In this document: piece by piece, positions 710 through 52,452 of the stretch
Numbering within the stretch: position 1 is the stretch's first letter
How the letters are laid out: every line of letters starts with the position of its first letter
NCBI GenBank assembly: GCA_016213405.1
Contig: JACRAM010000113.1
Span: 1-52,452, forward strand
Reading direction: 5' to 3'
DNA length: 52,452 nt
DNA from: Bacteroidota bacterium
Lineage (GTDB): Bacteria; Bacteroidota; Bacteroidia; Palsa-948
Made by a program: the position numbers and the translations under genes
Notes under the pieces: model-generated
Databases searched by the model: none
The model's input: the letters and a program-made list of their open reading frames with translations, nothing else
What the model was told of the DNA's origin: nothing

Positions 710-2823
710 TATCGCGTGATAATTATTTTTTGTGTTTTAGTAAATGCTCCGTTGTTGATTCTGCAAAAATAAATTCCGTTCGCTTCGCTTAGGTTTACTG
801 TTTCCTGTTTTTGGTTTACGGTTTTATTGTAAACAATTTGTCCTATTGAATTGAAAACTTGTATTTCAACCGGAGACTGTAAACCAAAGACTATAAACTT
901 TCCCGAAGAAGGATTAGGATAAATTTTTAAATCATTTTCAGTTGCAGTATTTTCTATACCAGTAGTCACCGAAGTTGAATCCGCAAACTTGGAAAGCAGC
1001 TTTACGTAAGCCGCGTTCACATAAATTCCCACTTCAGAAATTTCCCATGAGTTTTCGGGAAAGGATGTGTTCCAGTCCTTATAACTTTTCTGAACGGGCT
1101 GATTTTGAGGAGGAGAAATCGGTGGACCTGTATAAGCAGCATCTGGTTGATAATCTTTGTTCACGCCTCCGGGAATAAATGCAGGAGGAGCGCCTATATA
1201 TGGACTTGCTCCTCCATCGTAAATCGTTCCATCGCCAAACCATCCGTGATAAATCTCCTGAGTGAAATTATCTCCGCCAAATACATTTGCGTTCGTCAGA
1301 AAAGCAAGTCCATGTGGATTTACTCCGTGCAGATAATGAATGTATCCTTCAGCAGCGTTTCGGTATTTAGTTTGGTTGGGTGCATCTAAATTGTATTGTA
1401 CCATATTATATAAGATGCTTCCCTCTTCGCATTTGAACTGATTATTTCCCCACACATAATCGTTGTCCTGCATCTGCGCCATGTAAGCATCTGTATTATT
1501 ATTGTAAGCGGGAAGCAAATCATTATTGTTTGATGAAACTGAAGTGATGCAATTATTTTTTATCGTGTTCACCACGCTTGCGGTCGCACCAATTGTATTG
1601 CAATAATAAAGAAGAGCATCTTGGTAAGGAGATTCAAAAGGATACCAATACGTCCACTGCAATGGCTGAATGTTGTAATTGTTGTCCACGTAAGTTCTGT
1701 AAGTAGTATTTCCTGTAGCGGCATAAAGATAAATCGCTGCGGTGAGCGAAGCGGAATTCTGGTCATAAGCCGAAACTTCAGGATTCGCGCTGGAGAAGCC
1801 GGAGTTGTTGTAGTTGGAATTTCCCGGATTATTCTGAAGCCATGTCCAGGCGAGTTGGGCTTTTGTCAGAAGAGTTGTTGAATAGGTTTGTAAAGATGGA
1901 ATGGTATTATACATAATACTTGCATGTGCGAACAAACTCGCTGCAGTTCTGGTAGAAGATGAAGATGCTGGACCGTAAAGCCGTTGAGCAGTATCTGTAC
2001 TTGGAGGAGATCCTCCAGTAAATCCCAATGTGGAAACTTTCATCAGTACTGAGCCGTCTATATTCTGCATTTTCAAAAGCCAGTCGAGTTCATATTTTAT
2101 TTCATCCAGAATATCGGGAATACCGTTTCCGCTTTCAGGAATATTATAATTGTCTTTGAACACAGTTGGATTCTGTTCGTACGCATCCAATAAATAATTT
2201 ACGGTTGCAAAACAAAAATTGGTGTACTTGTTGTAATCCCCCGCATCGTGCCACCCTCCTGATAAATCTTTTTCAAGCGAAACATTGCTGGGCTGTGTCA
2301 CATCTCTGCAATTCAAATCCTGCATCGTTCCTTCATGGCAAATCACGTCTGTATAATTTGTTCCTGCATACTGCGCAGTCTTCGCCATGCCGCATCGCTG
2401 ATGATAAAAAAAACGAATGGCGTATTTCAGCGCATCGTTGTAAACATTATTTCCAATCGTGAAAGTATAAGTGCGCTTGTTGTTTTGGCTGTCATATATA
2501 TAGTAATCATCGGGAGCGACCACATTGCTGAAATCAAACCACCAGGCTTTGTCTCCGCTCTGCACATGCGTTGCTCCGCCATTCCACGGAATTGCAGGAC
2601 CAATTGAAACAGTTGCATTATCCGACTGCCTTTTTACAAAGAGCGTATCATTCGGAGTGTAAGGGTCAGGAGCATTGTAACCCGTCTGCGGATCGGAGAT
2701 AACACAGATTTTTCGGTCGTTCAGCTTGTAACCAATCTGATCTAACTTGAAGTGATTATCTATTGTTTGGGTAAACAAAGATGCAAACGGATAAAACAAA
2801 CAGATGCAAACGGATAATTTCAT
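709..2823 (-). CDS. Secreted glycoside hydrolase family 9 (cellulase-type) with T9SS type A tail
   Basis: 704 residues from the ATG at 2821-2823. The frame stays open 35 codons further upstream, but only this start puts a signal peptide (MKLSVCICLFYPFASLFTQ) at the N-terminus. Next is a CelD-type Ig-like domain (starting near HFKLDQIGYKL), then the GH9 (alpha/alpha)6 barrel with the catalytic-base motif SGGWHDAGDYNKY at about residues 185-197 and the acid region SEVGIYVNAAY near 595-606. A T9SS type A sorting domain (about 630-704: YPNPSSGKF, GIYFCRI) ends the protein. It should hydrolyse beta-1,4-glucans at the cell surface or outside the cell. Both the signal peptide and the sorting tail contain short-word repeats. 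It is divergent from the epimerase-CBS gene, 85 bp away. Confidence 0.9.
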   Translation of the reverse strand: MKLSVCICLFYPFASLFTQTIDNHFKLDQIGYKLNDRKICVISDPQTGYNAPDPYTPNDTLFVKRQSDNATVSIGPAIPWNGGATHVQSGDKAWWFDFSNVVAPDDYYIYDSQNNKRTYTFTIGNNVYNDALKYAIRFFYHQRCGMAKTAQYAGTNYTDVICHEGTMQDLNCRDVTQPSNVSLEKDLSGGWHDAGDYNKYTNFCFATVNYLLDAYEQNPTVFKDNYNIPESGNGIPDILDEIKYELDWLLKMQNIDGSVLMKVSTLGFTGGSPPSTDTAQRLYGPASSSSTRTAASLFAHASIMYNTIPSLQTYSTTLLTKAQLAWTWLQNNPGNSNYNNSGFSSANPEVSAYDQNSASLTAAIYLYAATGNTTYRTYVDNNYNIQPLQWTYWYPFESPYQDALLYYCNTIGATASVVNTIKNNCITSVSSNNNDLLPAYNNNTDAYMAQMQDNDYVWGNNQFKCEEGSILYNMVQYNLDAPNQTKYRNAAEGYIHYLHGVNPHGLAFLTNANVFGGDNFTQEIYHGWFGDGTIYDGGASPYIGAPPAFIPGGVNKDYQPDAAYTGPPISPPQNQPVQKSYKDWNTSFPENSWEISEVGIYVNAAYVKLLSKFADSTSVTTGIENTATENDLKIYPNPSSGKFIVFGLQSPVEIQVFNSIGQIVYNKTVNQKQETVNLSEANGIYFCRINNGAFTKTQKIIITR
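788..893. repeat. Inverted short-word repeat inside the GH9 sorting tail
   Basis: Words of the type GGTTTACNGTTT occur at 791-830 and return inverted at 882-893 region (ACTGTAAACCAAAGACTATA). The same words occur intergenically upstream of carB (39438-39480). In the minus-strand reading they encode the loop YNKTVNQKQETVNLS of the type A tail. Confidence 0.55.
2779..2816. repeat. Direct repeat of a 14-mer within the GH9 signal peptide
   Basis: AGATGCAAACGGAT occurs at 2779-2792 and again at 2802-2815. Read on the minus strand, these bases encode most of the hydrophobic core of the signal peptide (SVCICLFYPFASLF). The same words make the intergenic hairpin at 44043-44115. Confidence 0.7.
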
Positions 2824-10660: not shown

Positions 10661-10726
10661 CACTCATAAGCAGGAAAGAGCCCTAACTCTTTTTTTGCTA
10701 TAAAAAGCGAGCTTTTTGAAACAGAA

Positions 10727-10936
10727 AGCCAGCTTAACAAAATGGTTAGCCAGCTAACCAGCTTGAAAAGCCAGCTAACCAAAACGGATAGCCAGCTAAC
10801 CAACTTGAAAAGCCAGATTAACCAAACGGATAGCCAGCTAACCAGTTTGAAAAGCCAGATTAACCAAACGGATAGCCAGCTAACCAGCTTGAAAAGCCAG
10901 ATTAACCAAACGGATAGCCAGCTAATCAAGTTTTAA
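10727..10936. repeat. Array of about ten 21-bp units
   Basis: Units of the form GCCAGCTAACCANNTTGAAAA alternate with GCCAGATTAACCAAACGGATA. The array therefore has a 21-bp unit and a 42-bp higher period. 21 bp equals three 7-bp words, and CTAACC/TTAACC words recur within units. Both strands are open through the array, so open frames here are expected by construction. The rest of the 512-bp gap (10496-11007) holds the palindromes and terminator listed separately. Confidence 0.9.
10742..10936 (+). CDS. Possible small heptad-repeat (coiled-coil-like) protein
   Basis: 64 residues made of seven-residue units SQLTSLK and SQINQTD repeated to the stop. Leu or Ile and Ser recur at fixed positions, as in a coiled coil, because the DNA unit is 21 bp. 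There is no signal peptide, domain or convincing promoter; the frame is open 24 codons further upstream without a usable start. It could be a real coiled-coil peptide or merely the translation of a tandem repeat; I favour the latter slightly. Confidence 0.25.
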   Translation: MVSQLTSLKSQLTKTDSQLTNLKSQINQTDSQLTSLKSQINQTDSQLTSLKSQINQTDSQLIKF

Positions 10937-10973
10937 AAGCCAGCTTAATGTGAAGGAATAGTTGAGATTTATT

Positions 10974-45668: not shown

Positions 45669-46718
45669 TTAGAACATGAATCCGTATTTCTGTCTTTTAA
45701 ACCGGCTGACATCGTATTTCTTTTTCTTATCCAAACCAATATTTGAACTCCATGCCAGCATAATTTCGTGAGAGCCGCTTTGAAATGAACGCAGAGGAGA
45801 AGTAATTATATCGTAAGAGTAGCTTATATGAAACTCTTCCATGAAAGTTACTCCTGCATGAAGTGCAATAGCATCGCGCAACCTTACAGACACACCGCCA
45901 AAAACTTTTTGCAGATAATGAAGCCGAAGATTGTAATCAATCGTCATGGGGTTTGCCTGTGCGTATAAAACCTGCAAAGAGTTTTCCCAAATCCAATCCG
46001 GCTGCCCTGACCAATTGTATCCCACACTTCCATAAACGTGAGGCACCATTCGGATGTTTGTTTTGTGCACGGTATCGGTTTCGGGATAATAATTAATGGA
46101 TGGTTCAAGAAGATTCAGCAAACTCAATCCGAGATGAAAACGGTCGTTGTAAAATAAAAGACCTGCGCTGGCATCCCAAACTTTTTTCGTTTGGGAAGAA
46201 GCTAGATCAATGGCATTGTCTATCGGAATGTGCATGTGAAGTTTTGTTCCGTCAACCGTATAGGAAAGATTATGAACTGCAGCGCCAACGGAAAGTTCTA
46301 CATCATCAAACTTAGCATGGAAAGAATATGCAAAAGAAAAATCAGAGCGCTTGGTGGGTCCGGTTTTGTCAGTAAAATAGGCTGCTCCCACTCCCATTGT
46401 GCCGCCTAATATTCTCGAGTTGGCAGAAACTCCCATCGTTACAGGCGCATTATCAAATCCTGTCCATTGATTTCTGTAATTCATTCTGGCATCAACAATT
46501 CTTTTTGTTCCCGCTACTCCGGGATTGAGCATTATGCTGTTCGGCTTGAACTGTGTGTAATAAGGCATCTGCTGACAGATGGCAGATGGAAAAATTCCAA
46601 AACTCAAAAAACAAAACACAAATAATATCCAAGTCCCAAGTCCCAAGAAGCAGCCAGCCACGGTTGTTCTCTTGGAATTTGGGATTTGGGATTTGGAATT
46701 TGGAATTTTATTTGTCAT
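45669..46718 (-). CDS. PorP/SprF-like outer-membrane protein, copy 1
   Basis: 349 residues. The mature part begins QQMPYYTQFKPNSIMLNPGVAGTKR, the PorP/SprF N-terminal signature, and continues as an outer-membrane beta-barrel (alternating aromatic/hydrophobic strands, final strand near ISYSYDIITSPLRSFQSGSHEI with the typical SHEI motif), plus a basic tail. PorP/SprF proteins bind exported type B clients and are needed for their secretion or surface retention. It lies 24 bp downstream of a type B client (46743-47615) on the same strand. The unusually long signal peptide (about 50 residues) is written largely by the inverted repeat 46629-46710. Confidence 0.92.
   Translation of the reverse strand: MTNKIPNSKSQIPNSKRTTVAGCFLGLGTWILFVFCFLSFGIFPSAICQQMPYYTQFKPNSIMLNPGVAGTKRIVDARMNYRNQWTGFDNAPVTMGVSANSRILGGTMGVGAAYFTDKTGPTKRSDFSFAYSFHAKFDDVELSVGAAVHNLSYTVDGTKLHMHIPIDNAIDLASSQTKKVWDASAGLLFYNDRFHLGLSLLNLLEPSINYYPETDTVHKTNIRMVPHVYGSVGYNWSGQPDWIWENSLQVLYAQANPMTIDYNLRLHYLQKVFGGVSVRLRDAIALHAGVTFMEEFHISYSYDIITSPLRSFQSGSHEIMLAWSSNIGLDKKKKYDVSRFKRQKYGFMF
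46629..46710. repeat. Inverted heptamer repeat spanning the PorP copy 1 signal peptide
   Basis: CCAAGTCCCAAGTCCCAAG at 46629-46647 (CCCAAGT heptamers) faces CTTGGAATTTGGGATTTGGG and further TTTGGGA/TTTGGAA heptamers at 46671-46710. Minus-strand translation gives NSKSQIPNSK on one arm and LGLGTWILF on the other. Confidence 0.8.
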
Positions 46719-46742
46719 TTGATGCTTGTCATATGTAATTTA

Positions 46743-47615
46743 TCATCTTATGATAGTTACCGCCCCCTGCATTTTTGATTTTCCGCTTCCGGGACTCAAT
46801 ACATAATAATACGTGGCGCAGGGAAGATCAACCCCGTCAACTCTTCCGTTCCAGTCATTTAAATAAGGCGATGCCTGATAAACAAGTTTGCCATTGCGGT
46901 TGAATACTTCAAATTTACTTTCAGGATATTTTTGAATATTTCCGATATAGAAAACATCATTCAAGCCATCTCCGTTTGGAGTGAATGCATTGTAAACAAC
47001 AAGTTCATCGCTTGGAATAACAAACAGAACCATGCAATCGTAATTTGCACAGCCATTTCCATCAACCCCTCCAACACAATATATAGTTGTATCAGAAGGT
47101 TCAGCAATTGGATTTGCTGAATTCTGATTGTAAAGAGTTTGCCAGGGATACCAATAGTAATTCACCGCACCGCTGCCAAGGAGCTGCGTATTTGTTCCTT
47201 CAATAATTGTCATATCAGGTCCTGCACTTACGTTTGGCAACGGAAAAGTATCTACAAAAATAATATCTACGGAAGAATTTCCAACTGCATCTGTAACGGT
47301 AAGTGTATAATCGGTTGGCGTGGAAGGAAAGGCATTTGGATTGGGTGAATTCGGAAAATCAAGTCCTGAAGTTGGCTGCCAGGAATAGGTGTAAAGAGGC
47401 GTTCCGCCCGTTGCTGAAGGATTGCCTCCTATCTGCACAGAATCATTCGGACAAATGCCTGTATTGTTTCCCGCATTGGCAGAAAGAGGAACGAAAGATT
47501 GAGCGTTTAAATGGCAGAAGGCAGAAGGCAGAAAGCAGAAAATAAAAATCCTCAAGAAGTATTTTTCAACGTGTAACGTGTAACTTGTAACTTGTAACCT
47601 ACTGCGCGCGTTCAT
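46743..47615 (-). CDS. T9SS type B (gliding-type tail) surface protein, PorP partner 1
   Basis: 290 residues from the ATG at 47613-47615, which overlaps the end of the membrane-protein gene by 17 bp; an internal TTG (about codon 21) would give a tidier signal peptide RIFIFCFLPSAFCHLNAQ. Body: two Ig/PKD-like domains with Cys pairs (NAGNNTGICPNDSVQIGG, VDGNGCANYDC). The tail NAFTPNGDGLNDVFYIGN, FEVFNRNGKLVY, GAVTIIR is type B. It pairs with the PorP/SprF gene immediately downstream. Heptamer repeats encode much of the N-terminal 35 residues. Confidence 0.88.
   Translation of the reverse strand: MNARSRLQVTSYTLHVEKYFLRIFIFCFLPSAFCHLNAQSFVPLSANAGNNTGICPNDSVQIGGNPSATGGTPLYTYSWQPTSGLDFPNSPNPNAFPSTPTDYTLTVTDAVGNSSVDIIFVDTFPLPNVSAGPDMTIIEGTNTQLLGSGAVNYYWYPWQTLYNQNSANPIAEPSDTTIYCVGGVDGNGCANYDCMVLFVIPSDELVVYNAFTPNGDGLNDVFYIGNIQKYPESKFEVFNRNGKLVYQASPYLNDWNGRVDGVDLPCATYYYVLSPGSGKSKMQGAVTIIR
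47513..47599. repeat. Heptamer repeats encoding the N-terminus of the type B protein
   Basis: GGCAGAA repeated three to four times at 47514-47540 (encodes FCFLPSAFCH on the minus strand) and GTGTAAC/TTGTAAC repeated four times at 47570-47598 (encodes LQVTSYTLHV). Confidence 0.75.
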
Positions 47616-47952
47616 CTCTTTTCTTTATTGCGTTAAATATGCTTGTTACTATCCACATTACTATACTGAACAACAACGCCTGCCAGAATCCGTTCACGCG
47701 AAATCCGTCAACCAGTTTATCAGCAAGAAGAATTATCAATGTATTTATTACAATCAGAAATAATCCGAAAGTAAAAATTACTGCCGGAAGTGAAAATAAA
47801 ATCAAGAGAGGTTTTACTAGAACATTGAGGCATCCAAGAACAAAAGCAACAATTACTGCAGTCACAAAACTATCTACATAAACTCCCGGTAAAATATAGG
47901 CAGTCACAAGAACAGCCAGCGTGGAAATAATCAGTCGGATTAAAAAATTCAT
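47599..47952 (-). CDS. Small four-helix membrane protein (phage holin 4_2/DUF360-like family)
   Basis: 117 residues with four predicted membrane helices (about 4-24, 29-50, 54-77, 88-108) and a charged tail KKRDERAQ. NVLVKPLLILFSLPAVIFTFGLF is the family signature. Despite the Pfam-style holin name, such genes are common housekeeping-like membrane proteins with unknown function. It sits between two divergent client/PorP pairs. A -7 box TATATTTG is at 47988-47995. Confidence 0.85.
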   Translation of the reverse strand: MNFLIRLIISTLAVLVTAYILPGVYVDSFVTAVIVAFVLGCLNVLVKPLLILFSLPAVIFTFGLFLIVINTLIILLADKLVDGFRVNGFWQALLFSIVMWIVTSIFNAIKKRDERAQ

Positions 47953-48230
47953 ATTGAAACAAAATAAAATTTCCTATTTTTGAAGGGCAAATATACAATT
48001 CTACGCAAAGGAAATAAGCAGCGATTCAATCAGAAACTATTATTACCAAATCGGAATACTGAATAAGTTATTTTTCATCACTTTTTTCGTCTATGATTTT
48101 TTACATTCTGTCGAAGAAAACACAACATCTGCCGAAAACAGAGCTCTGGCTATTGATATAGTTATATAATGTATGCACCTTTGTGTAGCGATTCTGAAAA
48201 GCAGTGCAATATTTAAATGTTATTTATGAA
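47953..48230. other. Divergent intergenic region
   Basis: 278 bp. Minus-strand -7 box TATATTTG at 47988-47995 for the membrane-protein gene. On the plus side the A+T-rich stretch TATAGTTATATAATGTATGC (48155 onward) followed by ACCTTTG (48177-48183) may serve the gene at 48231. No gene or strong hairpin is seen. Confidence 0.4.
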
Positions 48231-49457
48231 ATGAAAATTTACTTTTCTCTTTTTATTAAAAAACGCAGCATCACTCATGCGGTTTTTTTATTGTTCGTCA
48301 TCGGACTTCGCTCATCTCAATGCTTTTCACAGGACTTTGTAAATAATGGCGATGTTATTTCTAACCTCAACGGCAACATTATTTTTGTTAACGGAAACAT
48401 CAGCGATCTTTCAAACGGAACTTTTGAAAATACCGGCTCCATTTACTTAACCGGTGATTGGACAAACAATGCCGGCAATCCTGCATTTACAATTACGCCT
48501 GGCGGAACCGTGTTGATGGTGGGTGCTACTCAGAATATTCAGGGAAGCAGTGTAACCGAATTTTACAATCTCACCCTTTCAGGCAGCGGTGTCAAACAAT
48601 TAACCGGCATTGATGCCATAGTGAAAAATACACTTAACCTTAATGACCGCGAATTGTCCACCAACACAAATACTGCTTTTGTAACTAACACATCCCTAAA
48701 TGCAATTACCCGCACAAGTGGTTTTGTTAGCAGTTTAGGAAACGGAGCATTGGTGCGCAGCATGGCATCAACAGGCACTTATCTTTTTCCGGTTGGTTCG
48801 AGTATTGCACCTGCACGATACCGACCGGTGGATATTGTAACGGCAACTAGTTCGGCAAATGCTTTTGCTGTTCGATTGGCTAACACGGAGGCTACCAACG
48901 AGGGATTCAATATTTTTCAAAAACAATCCACCATTCAAAATGTTAATCCGCTGTATTATCACCGCATCCGAAGAGACAGTGGCAGTACGGCTGCAGACAT
49001 TACTATTTATTTTGATGCAGTGCTTGACGGAAATTTTGCAGGCATCGCGCACTGGCAAAATCAGCCGCAATGGGAAGATATAAATGCAGGTTCTGCATCA
49101 GGTAATTATGGATTAAGTGCGTTGAGCAAACAGGTATGGAACGACTTTTCTCCTGATGCATTTGCTTTGATAAACGATGAATGTGGAGAATTTTTTGTTC
49201 CTACTGCTTTCTCTCCTAACAACGATGGTCAAAATGATTTTGAATGTGTTTACGGAAAGTGTATAGAAACTCTTTTGTTTTCCATCTATGACCGCTGGGG
49301 AGAAAAAGTGTTTGAGACCGAAGACAAAAATCTGTGTTGGGATGGAAAATACAGAGGCAAACTAATGAATACCGGTGTGTTTGTTTACACCCTGCACGCT
49401 ACTTTCAAGTCGGGTCAAGAAATAACTAAAAAAGGTAACATAGGATTAGTGCGATGA
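48231..49457 (+). CDS. T9SS type B (gliding-type tail) surface protein, PorP partner 2
   Basis: 408 residues from the ATG at 48231; the GTG at 48204 would add nine residues ahead of the signal peptide (KIYFSLFIKKRSITHAVFLL, cleavage near CFSQ). The body (about 35-310) is rich in Asn/Gly/Thr and resembles a beta-helix or adhesin stalk (NGDVISNLNGNIIFVNGNIS), followed by a beta-sandwich. The type B tail (about 322-408: VPTAFSPNNDGQNDFE, SIYDRWGEKVFE, KKGNIGLVR) is clear. The next gene, 34 bp downstream, encodes its likely PorP/SprF-type carrier. Confidence 0.9.
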   Translation: MKIYFSLFIKKRSITHAVFLLFVIGLRSSQCFSQDFVNNGDVISNLNGNIIFVNGNISDLSNGTFENTGSIYLTGDWTNNAGNPAFTITPGGTVLMVGATQNIQGSSVTEFYNLTLSGSGVKQLTGIDAIVKNTLNLNDRELSTNTNTAFVTNTSLNAITRTSGFVSSLGNGALVRSMASTGTYLFPVGSSIAPARYRPVDIVTATSSANAFAVRLANTEATNEGFNIFQKQSTIQNVNPLYYHRIRRDSGSTAADITIYFDAVLDGNFAGIAHWQNQPQWEDINAGSASGNYGLSALSKQVWNDFSPDAFALINDECGEFFVPTAFSPNNDGQNDFECVYGKCIETLLFSIYDRWGEKVFETEDKNLCWDGKYRGKLMNTGVFVYTLHATFKSGQEITKKGNIGLVR

Positions 49458-49491
49458 GAAATTTGAGAATACAGAATACAGAATTCAGAAG

Positions 49492-50598
49492 ATGAAAAAC
49501 AAAAGCAAAAAGTTTTTAATTCAAAATTCAAAAGAGTTGTTCCTTTTGACTTTTGAATTATTCCTCTTTTGCCTTTTTTGCCTACTGCCTACTGCCTACT
49601 GCTTTTCACAGGACATTCACTTCTCGCAGTTTTATATGAATCCGCTTGCCATGAATCCGGCAAATGCTGGTGCAGATAGAAATGAGATGCAGGCAATTCT
49701 GAATTATAAGGACCAATGGAGAAGTGTTGCTTCTCCCTATAAAACTATTGCCCTTTCCTGCGATAAGAGAATTCAAAAGAAAAAAAGTGCTATGGATTTT
49801 TGGGCAGTGGGCATAAATTTTTTTAATGACAAAGCAGGGGATATTAATATGAAAACATTTCAGGCAAATATCTCGGCTGCCTATCATCATTATCTGAGCA
49901 AGGAAAAATATTCTTCTGTTGGTGTTGGATTGCAAACCGGTTTTGCACAGCGAAGCATTAGTTATGACGCGGTAACCTGGGGCAATCAATTTGACGGGAA
50001 CAGCTACAATCCCTTTCTCCCTACAGGCGAACCTGCCAGTGGCACTTCCTACGCCTATGGAGATTTTCTAAGCACCGGAGTTTTATATTCCTATAATAAT
50101 ACGTCCGGAAGAATAAAAGTCACTGATAATCATGAGTTGAAAGTTAATCTGGGATTTTCTGTTTTTCATATCACGCAACCCAAGTATTCATTTTATGAAT
50201 CGGGAGAGAAAATATATATGAAATATGTTTTGCATGGCAACGCTCTGCTTAGTGTGCCCAATACGAATATTGCCTTTGCTCCCGGTTTTATGTATTTCAG
50301 ACAAGGTCCGGCTCAGGAAATTTATCCGGGCACATTGATCAGATATAAACTCAGGCAAGCAAGCAAGTACACCGGTTATTATAAGTCAATGGCAATTTCA
50401 GTGGGCGCTTTCCTGAGAATGAAAGATGCCATTGCTCCTGTTGTATTATTCGAAAATGCGGGTTATAGTATCGGACTCAGTTATGATGTAAATGTCTCTG
50501 ATTTGAAAGTAGCTTCAACAGGCAGAGGAGGATTTGAAATTTCTCTGAAGTATCAAATGCCTGTTAGAGCCATTTACGGAAGCAGGTCTAAATTTTAA
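49492..50598 (+). CDS. PorP/SprF-like outer-membrane protein, copy 2
   Basis: 368 residues. Mature start QDIHFSQFYMNPLAMNPANAGAD is the classic PorP/SprF signature; the rest is an outer-membrane beta-barrel ending with SYDVNVSDLKVASTGRGGFEISLKYQM. It is the downstream partner of the type B protein at 48231. The signal peptide (about 40 residues; LFCLFCLLPTAYCFSQ) is built on GCCTACT heptamers and a TTCAAAAG/CTTTTGAA inverted pair. Confidence 0.93.
   Translation: MKNKSKKFLIQNSKELFLLTFELFLFCLFCLLPTAYCFSQDIHFSQFYMNPLAMNPANAGADRNEMQAILNYKDQWRSVASPYKTIALSCDKRIQKKKSAMDFWAVGINFFNDKAGDINMKTFQANISAAYHHYLSKEKYSSVGVGLQTGFAQRSISYDAVTWGNQFDGNSYNPFLPTGEPASGTSYAYGDFLSTGVLYSYNNTSGRIKVTDNHELKVNLGFSVFHITQPKYSFYESGEKIYMKYVLHGNALLSVPNTNIAFAPGFMYFRQGPAQEIYPGTLIRYKLRQASKYTGYYKSMAISVGAFLRMKDAIAPVVLFENAGYSIGLSYDVNVSDLKVASTGRGGFEISLKYQMPVRAIYGSRSKF
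49521..49602. repeat. Short-word repeats encoding the PorP copy 2 signal peptide
   Basis: TTCAAAATTCAAAAG at 49521-49535 with inverted CTTTTGAA at 49550-49557, then GCCTACT three times in a row at 49580-49600. They encode IQNSKE, LTFELF and LLPTAYC. Confidence 0.8.
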
Positions 50599-50666
50599 TG
50601 AAGAACACAAGCAAAAAAAAGTAGTATTATATATTATATAAAGGAACAAACTTCACTCTGAATAAC

Positions 50667-52452
50667 ATGAAAAAATTAATCATCACATCCGCAACAGTTT
50701 GCAGTTTGCAATTTGCCATCTGCCATCTGCCATCTGCCATCTTACATGCGCAGCAAAACACAGGCATAGGAACTCTTACCCCTGATCCCTCGGCAAAGCT
50801 GGATGTGGTTTCCACAACGCAGGGTGTGTTGGTTCCGCGCATGAACACTGCCCAGATGAATGCCATTGCTGCTCCCGCAAACGGACTTATGATTTACAAT
50901 ACAGATACCTTATGCTTCTTTTATTATAAATCAATTGCATGGATTTCACTTTGCAATGCAGGAGGCGGTTCATGTCCTGCTGGTCCACAAGGTCCTACTG
51001 GTGCAGCAGGAACCAATGGAACTAACGGAACAAATGGCACGAACGGCACAAACGGAACAAATGGCACTAACGGAATTAATGGCGTAACCGGTCCCACTGG
51101 TGCAGCGGGAGCAAATGGAACTAACGGAACAAATGGAATAACCGGACCAACTGGCGCTGCATCCACAATACCCGGACCTACCGGACCAACAGGTAATGGA
51201 ATCAGTTGCTGGGATTTGAACGGAAACGGAATAAATGATCCTGCTGAAGATTTGAACGGTGATGGTAGCTGGAACTCTCTTGACTGTGTGGTGGGTTCTC
51301 CCGGTCCTACCGGACCAACCGGTGCAGCAGGCATAAACGGTACTAATGGAACAAACGGAATAAATGGCGTAACCGGTCCTGCCGGAGCAAATGGAACTAA
51401 CGGTACCAATGGAACAAACGGAATAAATGGTGTAACCGGACCAACAGGTGCAGCAGGCATAAACGGTACTAATGGCACAAACGGAACAAATGGCGTAACC
51501 GGACCAACTGGCGCTGCATCCACAATACCCGGACCTACCGGTCCAACAGGAAATGGAATCAGTTGCTGGGACTTGAACGGAAACGGAATAAATGATCCTG
51601 CTGAAGATTTGAATGCGGATGGTTTCTGGAATTCTCTTGACTGCGTGGTGGGCTCTCCCGGACCAACCGGTCCAACAGGTGTAGCAGGCGCGAACGGTGC
51701 AACCGGTCCTGCCGGAGTTGCAGGTCCAACAGGTGCAGCCGGAGCGAATGGAACCAATGGAACCAACGGAGTGACCGGACCCACAGGAGTAGCCGGAACA
51801 AATGGCACGAATGGTATTAATGGAATAACCGGCACAACCGGACCGGCAGGAGTTGCCGGGCCCGCAGGACCCACAGGTGCAGCGGGAGCAAATGGTACGA
51901 ACGGAACCAACGGAGTGACCGGACCTACAGGTGTTGCAGGAACAAATGGCACGAACGGTATTAATGGAGTAACCGGCACAACCGGACCGGCAGGAGTTGC
52001 CGGACCCGCAGGTCCCACAGGTGCAGCCGGAGCAAATGGTACGAACGGAACCAATGGCGTAACCGGATCCACAGGTGTCGCAGGAACAAATGGTATTAAT
52101 GGAGTAACTGGCACAACCGGACCTGCAGGAGTTGCCGGACCCGCAGGACCCACAGGTGCAGCGGGAGCAAATGGCACCAACGGAACCAATGGCGTAACCG
52201 GACCCACAGGAGTAGCCGGAACAAATGGCACGAACGGTATTAATGGAGTAACCGGCACAACCGGACCGGCAGGAATTGCCGGACCCGCAGGACCAACAGG
52301 TGCAGCCGGAGCGAATGGTACGAACGGAACCAATGGCGTAACCGGACCTACAGGAGTAGCCGGAACAAATGGCACGAACGGTATTAATGGAGTAACAGGC
52401 ACAACCGGACCTGCAGGAGTTGCCGGACCCGCAGGACCAACAGGTGCAGCGG
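50667..52452 (+). CDS. Collagen-like surface protein, 3' end beyond the window
   Basis: At least 595 residues, open from the ATG at 50667 to the window end with no stop. Signal peptide MKKLIITSATVCSLQFAICH to about Gln29, then an N-terminal module common in Bacteroidota surface proteins and fibre-like proteins (TGIGTLTPDPSAKLDVVS, TQGVLVPRMNTAQMNAI, GLMIYNTDTLCFFYY; about 31-95). From about residue 103 a Gly-x-y collagen-like region (PAGPQGPTGAAG, NGTNGTNG) is interrupted twice by a calcium-loop-like segment DLNGNGINDPAEDLN flanked by two Cys. From 51726 it becomes a regular 48-residue repeat. It likely forms a trimeric fibre at the surface; the tail (possibly a T9SS signal) is not visible. 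Confidence 0.9.
   Translation, partial: MKKLIITSATVCSLQFAICHLPSAILHAQQNTGIGTLTPDPSAKLDVVSTTQGVLVPRMNTAQMNAIAAPANGLMIYNTDTLCFFYYKSIAWISLCNAGGGSCPAGPQGPTGAAGTNGTNGTNGTNGTNGTNGTNGINGVTGPTGAAGANGTNGTNGITGPTGAASTIPGPTGPTGNGISCWDLNGNGINDPAEDLNGDGSWNSLDCVVGSPGPTGPTGAAGINGTNGTNGINGVTGPAGANGTNGTNGTNGINGVTGPTGAAGINGTNGTNGTNGVTGPTGAASTIPGPTGPTGNGISCWDLNGNGINDPAEDLNADGFWNSLDCVVGSPGPTGPTGVAGANGATGPAGVAGPTGAAGANGTNGTNGVTGPTGVAGTNGTNGINGITGTTGPAGVAGPAGPTGAAGANGTNGTNGVTGPTGVAGTNGTNGINGVTGTTGPAGVAGPAGPTGAAGANGTNGTNGVTGSTGVAGTNGINGVTGTTGPAGVAGPAGPTGAAGANGTNGTNGVTGPTGVAGTNGTNGINGVTGTTGPAGIAGPAGPTGAAGANGTNGTNGVTGPTGVAGTNGTNGINGVTGTTGPAGVAGPAGPTGAA
50714..50741. repeat. TGCCATC heptamer, four tandem copies, in the collagen-like signal peptide
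   Basis: TGCCATC repeated exactly four times (50714-50741) after GCAGTTTGCAATT. It encodes AICHLPSAI, part of the signal-peptide core. Confidence 0.85.
51726..52452. repeat. 144-bp tandem repeats of the collagen-like gene
   Basis: Unit starts at 51726, 51870, 52014, 52149, 52293 and 52437, so spacing is 144, 144, 135, 144, 144 bp; the third unit lacks one NGT-type triplet (9 bp). Each unit encodes 48 residues (16 Gly-x-y triplets). Upstream, a 357-bp block carrying the DLNGNGIND segment is duplicated (about 51190 and 51547). Confidence 0.88.

Follow-up and report, generated by a model that had tools for sequence, protein, structure and literature searches.

Why are the codons for the signal peptides (SPs) of several unrelated exported proteins made of short tandem words that also occur as non-coding repeats? 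The question is raised by a 52,452-nt contig of a Bacteroidota bacterium of the Palsa-948 lineage (JACRAM010000113.1, assembly GCA_016213405.1; the window below), in which a first-pass annotation had noted such words at the starts of five genes, coding for a GH9 protein, two PorP/SprF copies (PorP1 and PorP2), a cargo protein of the type IX secretion system (T9SS; the type B protein) and a collagen-like protein. We found that arrays of 7-bp words (heptamers) are enriched in SP codons, that they mostly lie there in the orientation that encodes hydrophobic residues, that most are positioned over the hydrophobic core and that their words turn over between orthologues. With a probability of about 0.8, heptamer elements have been inserted or expanded in this genome, have been kept where hydrophobicity is all that counts and now act as SPs.

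Heptamer Arrays Are a Dispersed, Period-Specific Repeat Class

The genome comprises 3.65 Mb in 127 contigs, of which the window is contig 113. The same-genome sample comprised the window and about 1.08 Mb of fetched stretches, 1.13 Mb in all; some stretches had been picked for their repeat content, and a separate 491-kb subset, picked blind to repeats, was analysed alone. Genes were called with a home-made in-frame hexamer model. Lag-7 runs counted as arrays under a score of +1 per match and −2 per mismatch with a threshold of 12; those in the window were located with Tandem Repeats Finder (TRF). Genes were labelled as exported independently of their N-terminus by profile hidden Markov models of C-terminal T9SS sorting domains and of PorP, seeded with window proteins. 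A simple hydropathy rule served to assign SPs to the remaining genes; for genes that bear arrays it is partly circular, which the C-terminal label is not.

The sample held 180 lag-7 arrays, whereas a second-order Markov simulation produced 0, and periods 5, 6, 8, 9 and 10 gave 3, 17, 32, 16 and 1 arrays. There are 92 different heptamer words, and the tandem 7-bp units are dispersed and period-specific, as in heptanucleotide repeats of the short tandemly repeated repetitive (STRR) type. That the words also exist as non-coding repeats was borne out, 63 of the 180 arrays being intergenic. At the starts of exported and SP genes, periods other than 7 are nearly absent. When synonymous codons were resampled for the identical peptides, a mean of 0.8 genes carried an array, compared to 46 observed. 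Hence, the repetition resides in the DNA and is no consequence of the hydrophobic peptides.

Arrays Are Concentrated in the Removable Ends of Exported Proteins

A 5′ array was present in 16 of the 86 genes labelled as exported and in 8 of 402 cytosolic genes (p = 5.5e-8); this difference in repeat content upholds the repeat origin proposed by the first-pass annotation. Among the other SP genes of the full sample, 30/224 had such an array (cytosolic genes, 7–8/402). The blind stretches gave 7/34 exported versus 5/179 cytosolic genes (p = 6e-4), and in five sister species of the same genus, each represented by one genome, the count was 16/104 versus 1/85 for cytosolic genes (p = 5e-4).

Expressed as arrays per kb, the first 150 nt in the blind stretches had 1.37 for genes labelled as exported and 0.72 for other SP genes, compared to 0.27 in intergenic DNA, 0.19 at cytosolic starts and 0.034 in other coding sequence. 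The same ranking was seen in the sister species (SP genes 1.15, intergenic 0.108, cytosolic starts 0.078, other coding 0.043). SP zones were denser in arrays than intergenic DNA, both in the blind stretches (18 arrays in 20.4 kb versus 15 in 56 kb, p = 0.001) and in the sister species (18 in 15.6 kb versus 6 in 55.5 kb, p = 5e-8).

The SP and the sorting domain are the two parts that are removed from the mature protein in the T9SS pathway. Across 83 genes that encode a T9SS sorting domain, 16 arrays lay at the N-end and 7 in the last 240 nt, with none in 122 kb of mature sequence (sorting domain versus mature part, p = 1e-6); at the cytosolic mid-gene rate, zero arrays in the mature part would have a probability of 6e-5. 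Sister-species cargo genes had 1.15 arrays per kb at the N-end and, in 51 kb of mature part, a single array, which is located at the start of a sorting domain. Six loci of the sample (L030, L034, L039, L052, L059 and L066) carry heptamer arrays within the T9SS sorting domain, in the last 96–198 nt, making it a second hot spot; one such array reads YPNPNNG-QFTVYSLQFTVYSL-EIYN. In-frame heptamer inserts, such as SSFVPRPSSLS, also occur in three cytosolic enzymes, apparently in loops (L015:2941-4440, L019:3715-4575 and L045:4265-5395; families PGM/PMM, GHMP kinase and aminotransferase fold). The earlier proposal that the repeats insert at 5′ ends therefore stands as far as the enrichment in SP codons goes; it does not stand as a general rule, since arrays are also found between genes, within the T9SS sorting domain and, with the hydrophilic strand coding, inside cytosolic enzymes.

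The Coding Strand, Not the Frame, Sets the Encoded Peptide

Since 7 = 1 mod 3, a heptamer array runs through all three frames in turn, and a stop-free array gives the same 7-residue repeat in every frame, so that the peptide is set by the strand and not by the frame. The pyrimidine-rich strand of the words encodes peptides rich in Leu, Phe, Cys, Ile and Tyr, and the opposite strand peptides rich in Lys, Asn, Ser and Gln. The more hydrophobic strand was the coding strand in 43 of 54 SP-zone arrays, compared to 13 of 45 mid-gene arrays, in agreement with the earlier suggestion that a 7-bp word can supply a hydrophobic 7-residue repeat. Of the 46 SPs with an array, 38 have it overlapping their most strongly hydrophobic stretch. 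In eight array-bearing SP genes, an array precedes the core, and the opposite arm is read as an n-region rich in K, N, S and Q, such as KIPNSKSQIPNSK of PorP1 and KVQSTKYKVQGT of L065.

One T9SS cargo gene (L059:2472-3368, minus strand) has its SP off-frame, the start MKKLSYIFFFFFLLTAYC lying in another frame than the continuation ...CLLPTAVCFSQNLVPNPSF. The gene may be in a switched state or dead, or the assembly may be wrong here.

Signal Peptides Are Rewritten in Other Words between Species

The closest named relatives found are the metagenome-assembled genomes (MAGs) palsa_971, nzgw126 and NC_groundwater_1592, which belong to the same genus (G001, G002, G005) and are 74–76% identical in prolyl oligopeptidase. 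The SP of this enzyme is here MKKIFFWLLASGFWLFVACTSTINHQPSTIAHLPYPQTKK, encoded by CTTCTGG and CATCAAC arrays; three relatives, whose proteins are about 75% identical over their length, have ordinary lipoprotein SPs that are array-free. For PorP1, orthologues that adjoin the same neighbour gene were compared in four species, including this one (64–76% identity). The SP words are an ATTCCAA/CTTGGGA hairpin here, TTCTGCC in G004, TGTCATT in G006 and both AAGTTAA and TTTTTCA in G001. The same turnover of words was seen for an amidohydrolase, where the SP array persists across species with a changed word, and for a TPM-domain protein. From these four comparisons, it follows that the SP is rewritten in other words while the mature protein is conserved. 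The residues are not shared between orthologues, which have ordinary SPs or other heptamer words; this supports the earlier idea that repeats have become, or replaced, SPs.

The TGCCWWY word family is found in 46 of 395 genomes of the phylum. Three distant Bacteroidota (G079, G407 and G409) share TGCCAAC, TGCCTAC and TGCCTTC in long arrays, which were almost only intergenic in the stretches sampled. A sample of nine further genomes held too few arrays for judging their placement relative to SPs.

Array-Bearing Genes and Hairpin Elements of the Window

PorP1 (45669–46718, minus strand; PF11751, E = 3.6e-56) has the translated SP MTNKIPNSKSQIPNSKRTTVAGCFLGLGTWILFVFCFLSFGIFPSAICQ. Its two arrays together form the arms of a single dispersed hairpin element (46619–46712, minus strand), a point that the first-pass annotation had missed, as it had the inverted pair of PorP2 described below. 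The element consists of an (ATTCCAA/ATCCCAA)n arm, a spacer and a (CTTGGGA)n arm, as found by BLAST, by alignment of copies and by RNA folding (z = −3.61), and is read first as the n-region and then as the hydrophobic core of the SP. The TRF arrays and their translations are 46672–46708 for the n-region given above and 46629–46647 (CTTGGGA) for the core FLGLGTW, both on the minus strand. The element has 65 BLAST matches in its own genome, more than 20 of them substantial, and 24 copies aligned from the sample, mostly intergenic, have a common arm–spacer–arm structure. Among the 180 sampled arrays, 35 have an inverted partner within 130 bp, compared to 0/180 arrays pasted at random sites. A dispersed hairpin family with a shared spacer, a trait of miniature inverted-repeat transposable elements (MITEs) and palindromic elements, thus describes the hairpin subset and not all arrays. 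The PorP1 orthologues are without the element, yet their SPs are also rewritten, so that a clean empty site could not be read. REP-associated tyrosine transposases (RAYTs) were considered as movers and rejected: the flanks of the 8 Y1_Tnp matches in the genome are array-free, except for one array far from the gene.

The type B gene, a CHU_C T9SS cargo (46743–47615, minus strand; PF13585, E = 2.4e-23), has the SP MNARSRLQVTSYTLHVEKYFLRIFIFCFLPSAFCHLNAQ, in which a GTTACAA/GTTACAC array (TRF, 47568–47598) encodes the n-region and a TTCTGCC array (TRF, 47513–47541) the hydrophobic core IFCFLPSAFCH, both on the minus strand. PorP2 (49492–50598, plus strand; PF11751, E = 6e-40) has the SP MKNKSKKFLIQNSKELFLLTFELFLFCLFCLLPTAYCFSQ; within its SP codons lie an inverted pair, AATTCAAAATTCAAAAG and CTTTTGACTTTTGAATT (49517–49560, plus strand; from the sequence and RNA folding, z = −3.27), and a TRF array of three TGCCTAC units encoding CLLPTAYC (49579–49602, plus strand). 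The collagen-like gene (50667–52452, plus strand; PF01391, E = 9.9e-58) extends past the window end and has the SP MKKLIITSATVCSLQFAICHLPSAILHAQ, with CAGTTTG and four-unit TGCCATC arrays (50695–50742, plus strand; TRF, 50714–50742) that encode TVCSLQFAICHLPSAIL; its array word recurs in SPs of other genes, such as those of L012 and L013. Its coding region from 50950 to 52452 consists of nested 9, 18, 54, 63, 144 and 279-bp repeats that run past the window end. Elsewhere in the window, an intergenic 42-bp tandem array of 5.2 copies lies at 10725–10943.

The first-pass list of five SPs made of tandem words was thus confirmed by TRF and translation for these four genes and not for GH9. In the GH9 gene (CDS 709–2928, likely start near 2823), AGATGCAAACGGAT occurs at 2779 and 2802 in probable SP codons (2779–2815, minus strand), as a 14-bp direct repeat with a 23-bp offset and without a lag-7 signal, and it was rejected as a heptamer case. 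In the GH9 orthologue of G003 (L265), the SP ends in KLPSPLGEGLGGEVFSQ, which is encoded by another palindrome, CTCCCCTCTCCTTTGGGAGAGGGG; hence, other repeat families also enter SPs.

A Proposed Model of Insertion and Retention

The genomes of this uncultured genus each hold heptamer repeats by the hundred; in the present one, they form a large population of dispersed short arrays of many 7-bp words, some paired as hairpins, which may arise and spread by slippage, by insertion or by both. For heptanucleotide repeats, Mrazek and colleagues (cited in PMC4679880) have proposed a slippage aided by a 7-nt contact of the polymerase. Most coding positions would reject such arrays, and SP cores would accept one orientation, since little more is demanded of an SP than basic first residues, a hydrophobic core and a site for cleavage. 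With its hydrophobic strand coding, an array could then lengthen the core, take its place or become it. Both n-region and core could come at once from a hairpin element, its purine-rich arm serving as the n-region and its pyrimidine-rich arm as the core. An array that codes for a needed core would be protected from deletion while intergenic copies decay, and the SP would come to be rewritten in different words from species to species, with the mature protein unchanged. Both this history of insertion plus retention and the working of the array-encoded peptides in export are what we infer from the distributions and comparisons above.

Several points weigh against this reading. The density of arrays in SPs over that in intergenic DNA exceeds what pure tolerance would give, and retention or positive selection must be added. 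Neither a target-site duplication nor an empty site was demonstrated for the arrays, which leaves spread by insertion a supposition, and the RAYT-type transposase genes of the genome are not flanked by arrays. In G079 and G407, which belong to distant families and were seen in small samples, arrays are almost only intergenic and none lies in an SP; a phylum-wide occurrence of SP arrays was rejected because the arrays of these two genomes are nearly all intergenic, and the breadth beyond the genus is uncertain. Finally, the SPs rest on a simple hydropathy rule and a home-made gene caller, and their cleavage and export are predicted from sequence.

A bolder version would make the heptamer elements a standing source of export signals, with the hairpin as a ready-made n-region plus core, whose capture and turnover rewires or switches exported surface proteins, the arrays being positively selected and not just tolerated. 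We consider this speculative and rather unlikely.

Alternative Explanations

The alternative that survives best, although we think it doubtful, is that the arrays are phase-variation switches, in which the gain or loss of one 7-bp unit would shift the frame and turn a surface protein off, as in the case of Neisseria opa, where CTCTT coding repeats in the leader peptide are known to mediate phase variation and set a precedent for leader codons made of repeats (PMC3960869). It is consistent with a unit length that is not a multiple of three (7 mod 3 = 1) in arrays lying within codons, with the surface and secreted proteins that the array genes encode and with the L059 gene described above, whose MKK start and hydrophobic core are off-frame from the mature part. 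However, the remaining array of that gene is short and degenerate (score 8), most arrays have just 3–5 units, and nearly all sampled array-bearing SP genes are in frame, whereas neutral switching predicts about one third. Intergenic and cytosolic arrays would, moreover, need a different reason.

The arrays could also be DNA or RNA signals at gene starts, such as binding sites or hairpins that control translation, with SP coding as a side effect. TAACTGA heptamers lie directly upstream of Maribeggiatoa start codons (PMC4679880), and the arms of PorP1 and PorP2 fold more stably than shuffled sequences (z = −3.6 and −3.3). This folding over the start region, which the first-pass annotation had suggested might tune translation initiation, holds for those two of the four window genes but is absent from the other two, the type B gene (z = +1.2) and the collagen-like gene (z = 0.0); as the starts of the latter two do not fold, translation tuning is no general explanation. 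Furthermore, cytosolic starts show no enrichment, and arrays are sparser in the 200 bp ahead of exported genes than in those ahead of cytosolic genes (0.33 versus 0.63 per kb). Upstream regions overall have 0.31–0.63 arrays per kb compared to 1.0–1.5 in the SP zone, so that the arrays are not centred upstream of starts. Their orientation tracks hydropathy and not the gene start, and their words differ among orthologues. We consider a start signal improbable as the main explanation.

Less probable still is that starts have been mis-called, the arrays being untranslated leader and the true SPs lying downstream. A coding-score gene caller does set starts downstream of several arrays. Nevertheless, in many genes the array is preceded by an MKK start and followed by an A-Q or lipobox site, and no alternative SP is available (for example, MKKIVSAIFIFAICHLPSAICHLSAQ); the frame is open, the orientation is hydrophobic, and the SPs of orthologues lie in the same place in other words. 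That low-complexity, T-rich SPs merely look repetitive through chance or codon composition can practically be dismissed, given the results of resampling (0.8 versus 46) and Markov simulation (0) and the lack of enrichment at other periods.

Relation to Known Repeats and Significance

Like the arrays described here, the opa repeats have a short tandem unit that is not a multiple of three and encode part of a surface-protein SP; opa involves one pentamer in one gene family, whereas the heptamers comprise many words in many unrelated genes and are also intergenic, form hairpins and turn over between species. The YPAL/RU-2 MITE is a dispersed palindromic repeat that forms part of the SP of Yersinia YPO1552 (Delihas, in PMC2229807); as described there, it concerns one gene, compared to about 15–20% of exported genes here, where the repeats are heptamer arrays and turn over. 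Rickettsia palindromic elements are likewise hairpin-forming dispersed repeats that lie in frame within genes, but they are families of 105–150 bp inserted in metabolic and other conserved genes (PMC10969869, PMC2229807), whereas the 7-bp arrays cluster in sorting signals.

TAACTGA direct repeats, reported from Beggiatoaceae, Cyanobacteria and some Bacteroidetes with a proposed regulatory role (MacGregor 2015, PMC4679880), are also dispersed and mostly short heptamer arrays, whose in-gene copies tend toward protein ends. They consist of one word, lie mainly upstream of starts and have no link to SPs, unlike the 92 words found here, which are densest in SP codons; neither TAACTGA nor a rotation of it was among the commonest words of our sample (those occurring at least twice). 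In the archaeal Borg elements, as presented in PMC9879509, fast-evolving tandem repeats likewise become protein sequence; there, they create disordered regions and not hydrophobic export signals, and they are virtually absent from host genomes.

Searches of an open-access library yielded no description of SPs encoded by heptamers in Bacteroidota. The phenomenon appears to be new in its scale, in being restricted to sorting signals that are removed, in its orientation rule and in its turnover between species.

SPs are loosely constrained and evolve fast, and to our knowledge, the origin of new ones is seldom visible in the sequence. Here, the raw material can be seen, as the same words occur as non-coding repeats and the SPs of orthologues are rewritten while the mature protein is kept. 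Annotation is affected as well because gene callers tend to truncate array-bearing starts. The finding also explains why repeat 'junk' builds up in the removable ends of secreted proteins.

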